Position numbers and translations under genes: made by a program
Source of the DNA: Candidatus Thorarchaeota archaeon
GTDB lineage: Archaea; Asgardarchaeota; Thorarchaeia; Thorarchaeales; Thorarchaeaceae
Length of the DNA stretch: 34,847 bases
Direction: 5' to 3'
Assembly: GCA_018238375.1 (NCBI GenBank)
Contig: JABCTJ010000155.1
Coordinates: 1-34,847 of the forward strand
Shown: positions 6,173 to 10,580 of the stretch, piece by piece
How positions within the stretch are numbered: the stretch's first letter is position 1
Layout of the letters: each line of letters opens with the position of its first letter
The notes under the pieces: generated by a model
Databases searched by the model: none
What the model saw: only the letters and a program-made list of their open reading frames with translations
Told to the model about the DNA's origin: nothing

Positions 6173-6874
6173 ATGTCTAAGAAGCCCGAAACTCTTCATG
6201 ACAGTCGCAAGGTCACCTATGATGATTCCCACTGGAAACTCCTGAACGAGCTAAGAGAGAGCGCACTTGAGGTGATGCAGGCACTACAGGACAATGGAGT
6301 CACTTCGTTTGTGTACGGCTCAGTCGCAAGAGGGGATGTCAGCAAATCATCTGATATTGATATCATCGTTCCCTATACGGTGTCCAGCTACAAGCTCGAG
6401 ATTGCAATTGGCTCAGGCATTAGAAGAGAGCTCGTTCAAGCTACTCCTTCTATGGTCCTAAAGGGACACATCTATCTTGAGAATGACATTGTAGTCACTT
6501 TTCCCCTCTTCAAGTTCAAATCGCGTGAGGAAGAGTTCTACCGATGGGGTGGACAAACGAGCACCAGCCAACTCAGCGAAAGAATCCGTGTTCCTGGTGT
6601 TGACAAGAGATTGATTCTGATTGAGCCTAGCGAAACAGGACATGTGGAACGCGGCGTCATTGGCTACGAACATATCGCAGCGAAGAAGGTGGGCGTAAGC
6701 ATTGATATCGCAAAGGATAGGGTACGAGTGCTCACTCGTCGTGATAGCGTTGGTCGCACAGGCGTCTACTTAACCAGAAACCTCTCTCCAGACGAGAGCT
6801 TCGAGGCTGTTGCTAAAGACCTAATGGACAGTGACCCAGCTCTGCGGCGCACAATCCAAAGACGTGCGAAGTAA
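6173..6874 (+). CDS. Predicted nucleotidyltransferase (Pol-beta superfamily, archaeal COG2413-like)
   Basis: 233 aa with the nucleotidyltransferase signature FVYGSVARGDVSKSSDIDIIV: G49-S50 followed by D61 and D63, two of the metal-binding carboxylates. The rest of the protein resembles an archaeal family of predicted nucleotidyltransferases with no established substrate. It is longer than minimal MNT-type antitoxins, and no HEPN partner is adjacent, so a toxin-antitoxin role is not supported. The start is one base after the TtuA-like stop, and the radical SAM gene follows within about a dozen bases. A role linked to tRNA or cofactor chemistry is possible but only inferred from context. Confidence 0.8.
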   Translation: MSKKPETLHDSRKVTYDDSHWKLLNELRESALEVMQALQDNGVTSFVYGSVARGDVSKSSDIDIIVPYTVSSYKLEIAIGSGIRRELVQATPSMVLKGHIYLENDIVVTFPLFKFKSREEEFYRWGGQTSTSQLSERIRVPGVDKRLILIEPSETGHVERGVIGYEHIAAKKVGVSIDIAKDRVRVLTRRDSVGRTGVYLTRNLSPDESFEAVAKDLMDSDPALRRTIQRRAK

Positions 6875-8002: not shown

Positions 8003-9091
8003 TCACCGGTCCATCTTGAATCTCAGAATCGCAGCGATACCGCTTAGGTTATGCAATTGGTTTCCTGCTGGATGGTCTGTTGAAATGATGTGGAACTCCG
8101 CACGAATCTTCTCGACATCACGAATGAGCCGATCCATCTTGCGCCTTTGCTCGTCAGTGCCCTCTCTAAGCTTCTTATCAGTGATAAGCAGGGTTTCTAC
8201 TGCCCCGAACTGCACAGCCTTCTTGACTTCATCATCGCCATACGCAACAAGACCATTATCTTTTGCAAGATGCTCTATCAGCTTCTCGACAAGCTGAGTT
8301 TCAGCTTCCAGCTTCAAGCCCTTAATCGCCTTGCCGATAATGCCACGAAATAGAATCTCTTTTGCCCCTGGAATCCCGATCGAGTTAGCACTCTCAGCGA
8401 CAACTGAAGGAAGGTCTTTCACTCCTGCTGCTATCAGATGCTTTTTGAAATGATCTTTGACAAAACCAGGACCTGCAATGACAATCAATCCGATATCGTT
8501 CTGTTCAATCTGCGAACGCACAGCAAGAGTTACACTCGAAAAGAATTCTTTCACAGTCTTATCGTGTGATTTCTGATCTCCTCGTTTCCGAGATATGGTA
8601 GTCCTAACCCGGACGCCCTTACTCAGTCCGAAGTCAGCTGCTAGGAAGAGTTCAGCCATGCCATCCTCAATAGTCACAATCAGACAGACAGGGGTTCCCT
8701 GCGTCTTCTCAGCTTGCTTCAATCGCGTTAGTAGATATCCTGGCCAGTGTTCTTTGAGGATTGTCAGCGTCCTGCCTGGCTCCACGTTGATAGTGTGATG
8801 AGATCCTATGTTCACCAAGTCATCGGGCCCCTCAAGGACGGTACCGAGTATTCTCACTCTGTTGCTGAATGTATGAAATGACACGTCCTCCACGCTTATC
8901 TTGAGAGTCATGGGCTTTCGGACGCTCTCCTGCTTTCTACCACTCTCATCACCCACTCTCACTCGCCGCATGGTCCTAGAAATAACTTGGTCTCCAGGAC
9001 CTACTACGTTGTAGAGGTGCCAGAGATCATCGAGGGTTTCAATCTTTAGCTTGATTTTACCCTCCTTCAGGATTCTTTTCAGGACCTTCAA
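8003..9091 (-). CDS. pelA: Pelota (aPelota/Dom34), ribosome rescue factor
   Basis: eRF1-related factor that enters stalled ribosomes and, with an ABCE1-type ATPase and a GTPase partner, splits them. It has the Sm-like N-terminal domain starting MKVLKRILKEGKIKLKIET, a central domain (IVIAGPGFVKDHFKKHL) and an L7Ae-like C-terminal domain (VQFGAVETLLITDKKLRE). It lacks a GGQ loop, as expected for Pelota rather than aRF1. The frame is open to an ATG at 9148, which would add 19 residues and overlap the upstream ATPase by 29 nt. The family normally starts at the MKVLK position, which here is a TTG at 9091. The start is therefore uncertain between these two. Confidence 0.92.
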   Translation of the reverse strand: MKVLKRILKEGKIKLKIETLDDLWHLYNVVGPGDQVISRTMRRVRVGDESGRKQESVRKPMTLKISVEDVSFHTFSNRVRILGTVLEGPDDLVNIGSHHTINVEPGRTLTILKEHWPGYLLTRLKQAEKTQGTPVCLIVTIEDGMAELFLAADFGLSKGVRVRTTISRKRGDQKSHDKTVKEFFSSVTLAVRSQIEQNDIGLIVIAGPGFVKDHFKKHLIAAGVKDLPSVVAESANSIGIPGAKEILFRGIIGKAIKGLKLEAETQLVEKLIEHLAKDNGLVAYGDDEVKKAVQFGAVETLLITDKKLREGTDEQRRKMDRLIRDVEKIRAEFHIISTDHPAGNQLHNLSGIAAILRFKMDR

Positions 9092-9119
9092 AGCGACACC
9101 GCCAGTCTGCGAATGCTCT

Positions 9120-10580
9120 CTAGAAGAAATAGTCTCCGTAGCTCTCATGTGGTTTTTCTGTTCGCTTTACGTAAAGACCATGAATTGAATTAGCATCAAA
9201 TCCTCTGGTTACTTCCTTTGCCCGCTCAACTTGCTCACTGTAGACTGCATCATGCCTTTCATGTACCGCAAGATCTCCTGCTACCCTGACAAGGCCACCC
9301 AATTCACGTAGCCGCAGTGTGAGAGCATCTCTTTGTCCATCAAGTTGGAACGCTATCTTCTCAGCAGTTTCCAGAACGGAATGGACTGCGTCGACTGTAA
9401 GGTGCGGGACTCTCCCGTCTTCCACAACGGTCTGTGCAATGAATCGCACTAGCGAGTCTAAGTTCTCAGTGTTTTTCTTCATCCATGAGGAGAGCATAAT
9501 TTCATAGCCATAGCCGCGAATTCTTGACCTGAGGGGTGGTAAAATGCTGGGTAGGTCCTCTACATTGCATGCTGCGAAAAGAACGAAATCACATGGTACA
9601 TCATCGACTCGCACAGCGGCCCCCGAGCTCTGTGGGTTATGTCCTGTAATTGGATACTTCTTATCTTGCATGGCGGTGAGAAGATGCTTCTGAAGTTGTC
9701 CTAATGTATTCAGCTCGTCAATGTATAAGATACCCTCGTGCGCTTCGTGAATGGCCCCTGGCACAACTCTAAGGTGAGCAGGCTTGCCCATTGGTTCTGC
9801 AGTTCCATAGGGGTCATGCTTGACATCTCCAAGGAGTTCAACAGGGCTGGCGCCACTTACTCGGATAAACCGTGTTGAGCTTCCGGGAATCAAGACTCGC
9901 CAATCACTGTCCTCCACATTGCTTCGTTGATGATGCTGAATGTTTTGCTGGAATCTAGTTACTCTGATAGTGTCCGAGCCTGTTCTTTCATAAACGATTT
10001 CATATCCGACTCCATTTACGGAGTCTTGATGAGAAACCTCGCTCAATGCAGGAGCTCTTACAACGTCCAGCATTCTAAAGAGCCCGTGGAACGACGCGCC
10101 ACAGTTCATATCGGCTCTCTTTGCAGCTCCACATTCCATGCAGGTACTGTGACTAGGTAGTGAGAAGCTCCCACATTTGGAGCATCTGTACCCCATCTCT
10201 GCGGCAACTTCGAAGGGAATCTCATGCGGTCGCATATACACTATGTCACTGGGCTGCTCTCGAATATCCGAGGGGATGCACTTCTCGTTAGCTCTTACAA
10301 CTATGACCTCAGGTCTGTCGACTTGGTTTGGGTTATGACGAAGCACAATCTCCTCTGCTGGTGGTGGAAGCAGAGAATGCGCGGCTTTGGCAAGCATCGA
10401 TTTCCCCACGCCAGGTGCTCCACAGAGCAGAACGTGTCTGCGTTGGGTCACTGCGGAGCGAACTAGAGTGACAGCATGCTCCTGACCTACTATCATCTCA
10501 AACGGATCGTTACATACTGGTATTCCCGCTGTGGTTTCCAGTCCGTCGAGCAGAGATGTCACGTCATAAAGCCTCGGCAT
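9120..10580 (-). CDS. LonB-like AAA+ ATPase with zinc ribbon, no protease domain
   Basis: 486 aa AAA+ protein. Walker A is GAPGVGKS (54-61), Walker B ILYIDEL (284-290), sensor-1 AACN (336-339), and arginines in RSRIRGYGYE (351-360) are candidate fingers. The stretch from GDVKHDPYG to GMIH-like VVPGAIHEAHEGILYIDE closely matches archaeal LonB. LonB carries membrane segments between Walker A and B, whereas this protein carries a zinc ribbon there (C133, C136, C147, C150). The serine/lysine Lon protease domain expected after the ATPase module is absent, and the protein ends after a short helical C-terminus. It should be a soluble remodelling ATPase. It sits directly upstream of, and probably co-transcribed with, Pelota. 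Confidence 0.85.
   Translation of the reverse strand: MPRLYDVTSLLDGLETTAGIPVCNDPFEMIVGQEHAVTLVRSAVTQRRHVLLCGAPGVGKSMLAKAAHSLLPPPAEEIVLRHNPNQVDRPEVIVVRANEKCIPSDIREQPSDIVYMRPHEIPFEVAAEMGYRCSKCGSFSLPSHSTCMECGAAKRADMNCGASFHGLFRMLDVVRAPALSEVSHQDSVNGVGYEIVYERTGSDTIRVTRFQQNIQHHQRSNVEDSDWRVLIPGSSTRFIRVSGASPVELLGDVKHDPYGTAEPMGKPAHLRVVPGAIHEAHEGILYIDELNTLGQLQKHLLTAMQDKKYPITGHNPQSSGAAVRVDDVPCDFVLFAACNVEDLPSILPPLRSRIRGYGYEIMLSSWMKKNTENLDSLVRFIAQTVVEDGRVPHLTVDAVHSVLETAEKIAFQLDGQRDALTLRLRELGGLVRVAGDLAVHERHDAVYSEQVERAKEVTRGFDANSIHGLYVKRTEKPHESYGDYFF

Follow-up and report, generated by a model that had tools for sequence, protein, structure and literature searches.

Lon-type and proteasome-docking ATPases of archaea

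Lon enzymes are the textbook case of a motor and a protease fused in one chain. In archaeal LonB (TIGR00764; Thermococcus onnurineus, PDB 3k1j and 4zpx), the AAA+ core carries two inserted membrane helices and is followed by a Ser-Lys protease domain. Lon-like-Ms of M. smithii and similar Lon-like proteases are Lon-type ATPases without membrane helices (PMC4864567). The archaeal 20S proteasome works with several ATPases, PAN, Cdc48 and AMA (PMC4192671), and also with PAN-2 (PMC11475706).

The window analysed here is a stretch of 34,847 nucleotides from a Thorarchaeota assembly, and it encodes an AAA+ ATPase (hereafter the ribbon ATPase) related to these proteins. It shares with LonB the AAA+ core, all of its motifs and the insertion site. 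Unlike LonB, it has neither membrane helices nor the Ser-Lys protease domain; a zinc ribbon and a beta region are present instead, and it has a C-terminal tail of its own. Lon-like-Ms keeps a C-terminal protease-type domain, whereas the ribbon ATPase has none. PAN, Cdc48/VAT, AMA and PAN-2, the archaeal ATPases docking to 20S, are likewise protease-less AAA+ proteins with a flexible C-terminal tail, and the tail LYG seen in one family of ribbon ATPases (f14) fits their HbYX motif. However, the ribbon ATPase belongs to the Lon clade and not to the classical AAA proteins, lacks the PAN domain architecture, and its tail is not uniform. Likeness to Cdc48/p97, the segregase of ribosome quality control, would be a proposed analogy of role only, as the ribbon ATPase is a single LonB-type AAA+ module with no Cdc48 match.

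No description of the ribbon ATPase was found in the open-licence papers searched. It is a new variant within Lon-type AAA+ ATPases. A conserved Asgard lineage retains the motor without the protease or the membrane anchor and has acquired a ribbon, so the fusion can be undone. This raises the question of whether, in the archaeal group nearest to eukaryotes, the motor feeds the proteasome or works on ribosomes.

AAA+ core, zinc ribbon and lost domains

The gene and the features of its core are as follows.

9120–10580, minus strand: zinc-ribbon, protease-less LonB-type AAA+ ATPase, a single open frame of 486 aa (open reading frame, LonB profile match, alignment)
10398–10421, minus strand: Walker A GAPGVGKS, residues 54–61 (G54, P56, G57, G59, K60 and S61 invariant in 46 aligned proteins)
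9714–9728, minus strand: Walker B LYIDE, residues 285–289 (D288 and E289 invariant in 46)
9216–9404, minus strand: AAA+ lid region, residues 393–455, with sensor-2 R425 (weak match to PF20436 LonB_AAA-LID; R425 invariant)

The TIGR00764 profile matches the protein in two halves flanking an insert (E = 5e-102). The top PDB sequence matches are Thermococcus LonB (4zpx/3k1j, E ~ 1e-78), and the AlphaFold model (mean pLDDT 80.6) has LonB as the top Foldseek match (4zpx, TMt 0.86–0.88). After Lon proteins, the next-closest folds include Mg-chelatase, MCM and ComM. Asgard LonBs are ~48% identical to the ribbon ATPase over the second AAA+ block. Walker A and B, the finger-region arginines and sensor 2 are invariant in the alignment of the window protein with 45 relatives, and the sensor-1 Asn is nearly so. 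The loop preceding Walker B retains H255, P257 and the aromatic Y258. The protein thus has an AAA+ ATPase module, as do the 20S ATPase caps, and the LonB-type core proposed by the initial annotation is confirmed. A decayed pseudogene is ruled out, since all motifs are conserved.

The insert occupies the site of the membrane helices in LonB.

9903–10286, minus strand: insert of ~128 aa, residues ~99–226, with the zinc ribbon and a beta-rich region (gap between the two LonB match blocks; AlphaFold strands at 181–211)
10116–10193, minus strand: zinc ribbon CxxC-x10-CxxC, C133, C136, C147 and C150 (cysteines invariant; weak zf-ChsH2 match)

All four ribbon cysteines are invariant in the 46 aligned proteins, and zinc binding is predicted. 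The largest hydropathy over 19 residues is 1.25 in the window ATPase, versus at least 2.1 in every LonB examined, and on this sequence-based prediction membrane helices are excluded. The replacement of membrane segments by a CxxC...CxxC ribbon, noticed at first reading, is therefore upheld by the invariant cysteines and the hydropathy. The claimed absence of the protease domain stands as well: the domain search found no Lon_C (PF05362) in the protein. The relatives in the Asgard families f11, f13 and f14 keep a segment like the linker of LonB into its protease and end soon after, which suggests a clean loss of the C-terminal domain. A frameshift concealing a protease domain is ruled out, since 45 relatives have this architecture as well, with no hidden protease domain. 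The protein scores 342.4 bits against the curated whole-protein cut-off of 516.6 for TIGR00764. With a score below this cut-off, no membrane helices and no protease, it was not filed as LonB. We describe the window protein as a paralogue of archaeal LonB that is soluble and lacks the protease.

The source assembly belongs to a Thorarchaeota family labelled f1 here. The ribbon ATPase is present in 44 of 47 f1 genomes and in most genomes of f11, f13 and f14, among which sampling is thin for f14 (four genomes) and f13 (three). The initial annotation proposed to look for a complete LonB elsewhere in the genome; neither Lon_C nor a second LonB match was found in the source assembly, which is 92.6% complete. 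A search with the ribbon protein as query found no membrane-type LonB in f1, and readily finds ordinary LonBs in other families (f5–f11 and f27–f29). A Lon_C search of f1 gave weak matches only, to Lon-like proteins of ~800 aa in four genomes.

Adjacency to Pelota

The gene following the ATPase encodes a ribosome-rescue factor.

8003–9091, minus strand: Pelota (aPelota/Dom34), with TTG start at 9091 (TIGR00111, 279.6 bits against a cut-off of 177.65; start conserved)
9097–9103, minus strand: Shine-Dalgarno-like GGCGGTG before Pelota (GGTG or similar before the start in most f1 members)

Pelota lies directly downstream of the ribbon ATPase on the same strand in 35 of the 36 f1 loci inspected. 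In the exception (L024, G198), ~1.4 kb is inserted between the two genes with the break at the Shine-Dalgarno sequence, and the junction element described below is intact. The Pelota start conserved across f1 is TTG, or rarely GTG, with GGTG or a similar sequence just before it in most. From the ATPase stop to this start there are 27 nt in 24 of the measured loci, and 25–28 nt in all but two, which have 34 nt. In the window, the distance is 28 nt. The position of the ATPase directly upstream of Pelota was thus correctly recognised at first, but the possible overlap of the two genes was not: the apparent 29-nt overlap arises from an upstream ATG, and the conserved start is the TTG at 9091. The f1 ATPase gene is probably co-transcribed with Pelota.

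As for the conservation of this adjacency, which the initial annotation proposed to check, it holds in f1 and fails in f11, f13 and f14. The neighbours in f11 are DnaG and a cysteine-desulfurase-like protein; archaeal DnaG stands directly upstream of the ribbon ATPase in L054, L055 and L057–L059 (NF003108, E = 1e-146 in L054). Archaeal DnaG is linked to the RNA exosome. In the four f14 loci (L050–L053), a gene for a tRNA-splicing endonuclease precedes the ribbon ATPase and genes for two SAM methyltransferases of unassigned target follow it, and in f13 an XPB-like helicase and a methyltransferase are the neighbours. Linkage to Pelota is thus specific to a single family. The synteny block of f1 also holds three convergent downstream genes, encoding a radical SAM protein, a nucleotidyltransferase and a TtuA-like protein, which indicates that the gene order of this region is conserved in general. 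In the window, the nucleotidyltransferase (6173–6874, plus strand) lies between the radical-SAM protein and the TtuA-like tRNA thiolase and is weakly similar to MntA-type antitoxins; it is syntenic in those f1 loci long enough to show it.

A conserved nucleotide element at the ATPase/Pelota boundary

When the C-terminal YFF was examined for conservation at the protein level, conservation of another kind came to light.

9123–9138, minus strand: conserved putative cis element, mostly C[AG]GARRCTATTTCTTY, at the very end of the ATPase coding sequence (silent positions invariant in 33 genes; ~1 copy per genome)

The final 16 coding bases of the f1 ATPase are nearly invariant at the nucleotide level in 33 genes, silent positions included, and the consensus stands immediately before the ATPase stop. 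Among the 43 conserved columns of two-fold-degenerate codons in these genes, 41 show silent variation. The two columns without it are the tail Tyr (TAT in 33/33) and the first Phe (TTC in 32/32). Position -16 is C in all 33 although its codon encodes Tyr, Ser, Phe or Pro, and no variation is found at the third codon positions -13, -10, -7 and -4. From the ATPase stop to the Pelota Shine-Dalgarno, the sequence is variable and the length nearly constant, so the element sits at a near-fixed distance before Pelota.

The element occurs about once per f1 genome, nearly always at the ATPase/Pelota junction. Outside f1 it occurs at about the control frequency, and the ribbon genes of f11, f13 and f14 lack it at their 3' ends. 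Use as a regulon site is unsupported by these counts. Dual coding with Pelota is ruled out by the gap, which is 27 nt in most genomes and places the Pelota start in the ATPase frame, behind the ATPase stop. No known RNA family matched the junction, and single-sequence folds gave no evident conserved RNA fold. We read the element as a putative cis element serving Pelota, which might be a promoter, an operator or an mRNA element. That it keeps a near-fixed distance to Pelota argues for regulatory coupling in f1. It is a separate and unexpected lead on the regulation of ribosome rescue in these archaea.

C-terminal tails and the 20S proteasome

The element coincides with the end of the protein.

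9123–9131, minus strand: C-terminal Tyr-Phe-Phe tail after a disordered linker, residues 460–486 (Y at -3 in 35/35; linker pLDDT < 50)

In the AlphaFold model, residues 460–486 have pLDDT below 50, as a disordered linker ending in the conserved C-terminus. The tails are conserved within families and not between them. They end in YFF, YFL or YYL in f1, and in LYG in f14, which fits HbYX and is encoded by codons that vary at silent positions. The RYG of f13 is missing the hydrophobic residue of HbYX, and the WNG of f11 is not HbYX. The loci examined, which are enriched for the ribbon ATPase, contain 366 distinct long frames, of which 37 end in Y[FY][FL]; all but one of these 37 are ribbon ATPases. 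Across archaeal proteins, HbYX ends have a frequency of about 0.93%, whether by chance or for other reasons (PMC11475706). Human 20S prefers the Y-F/Y form of the tail, and Phe at the second-last position is at least as good as Tyr (PMC8907193). The f1 tails have this form. PAN tails in the lineage of f14 are IYA and MYA, and Asgard PANs sometimes have Phe at the second-last position (MFC, FFV, FFT). A PCNA-binding (PIP) box was considered for the tail and ruled out, as its hydrophobic position is missing. The f1 tail codons are fixed at the nucleotide level, so YFF may simply follow from the cis element.

20S subunits are present in all 47 f1 genomes, with up to four subunit genes per genome (G000 and f1 genomes). 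PAN-type ATPases match in 228 of 228 Asgards, 197 of them above the PAN cut-off. One alpha subunit of the source assembly retains the EKI motif around the pocket lysine.

Possible functions

As the best explanation, we tentatively favour a soluble LonB-derived unfoldase that passes proteins on to a partner, possibly the 20S proteasome, and is linked to Pelota in f1. By analogy with LonB, the protein would most likely form an ATP-driven ring that threads polypeptide and unfolds proteins or pulls on them. In the LonB geometry the ribbon would lie on the side where substrate enters and would select or dock it, and the polypeptide would be handed to a separate partner at the face that in LonB bears the protease. 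The 20S proteasome would be the most likely and most economical partner, held by the flexible C-terminal tail, given the presence of 20S and PAN-type ATPases, the retained pocket lysine motif and the resemblance of the tails to 20S-docking tails. Since the gene is probably co-transcribed with Pelota in f1, stalled or aberrant translation products could be the likeliest substrates there. That genomes with the ribbon ATPase already have PAN counts against the proteasome. This reading is held tentatively because the f1 tail is confounded by the element, the f11 and f13 tails are WNG and RYG, and few f13 and f14 genomes are available.

In the reading of the initial annotation, the ATPase may be a remodelling factor of ribosome rescue that, together with Pelota, acts on stalled ribosomes or on nascent chains; the proteasome would not be needed. 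Its same-strand position directly upstream of Pelota in nearly all inspected f1 loci, usually at 25–28 nt, and the junction element, absent in lineages without the adjacency, are in line with this, and zinc ribbons are common among translation-associated proteins. However, the usual ATPase partner of Pelota in archaea is ABCE1, the conserved block in f1 extends to the three convergent genes, and without the Pelota adjacency in f11, f13 and f14 ribosome rescue cannot define the role of the whole protein family. The initial interpretation is thus supported in part, and we consider this proposal somewhat less probable than the favoured reading. A stand-alone unfoldase, disaggregase or assembly chaperone that releases its substrate, with no protease partner and with a tail and tail partner differing by lineage, appears equally probable. 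It would account for tails that are specific to each family (YFF, LYG, RYG, WNG), for the varying gene neighbours and for the retention of LonB in f11, but the f14 tail is PAN-like, and otherwise this reading can hardly be separated by sequence from that of a proteasome partner.

Quite improbable is a nucleic-acid remodelling or regulatory ATPase with a ribbon binding DNA or RNA, as in the related ComM/MCM-like rings. Mg-chelatase, MCM and ComM are indeed among the folds next to the Lon proteins, and DnaG, a tRNA endonuclease and an XPB-like helicase are among the neighbours outside f1, but the closest relatives by far are the protein-translocating LonBs, as the identity over the second AAA+ block indicates, and the motifs preceding Walker B are retained. 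To return to the favoured unfoldase, it can be speculated, with small probability, that a Lon-clade ATPase traded its own protease for 20S and in f1 was wired to Pelota through the junction element, which would constitute an archaeal route from the stalled ribosome to the proteasome driven by a motor that is not Cdc48.

Origin of the ribbon ATPase

Ribbon proteins and LonBs form separate clades with 100% support. Family f11 carries both the ribbon protein and a full LonB, and the two do not group together. Recent truncation of a resident LonB is thus unsupported, and the ribbon protein looks like an old paralogue.

The phyla searched were the Asgards and one DPANN phylum. In the latter, LonB-type matches occur in 201 of 237 genomes. 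All of those listed are interrupted at the insert in the manner of ordinary LonB, and there is no ribbon-type protein among them. One f21 genome (G161, G161:C165, L049) has a ribbon ATPase nested inside f14. The bin is 9% contaminated, and this copy is probably bin contamination and was discounted. Two other loci, L143 (G008:C1:~1114000) and L148 (G041:C2:~397000), encode second LonB paralogues that keep the membrane segments and have a C-terminal domain not scoring as Lon_C. They are possibly LonBs with a degenerate protease.
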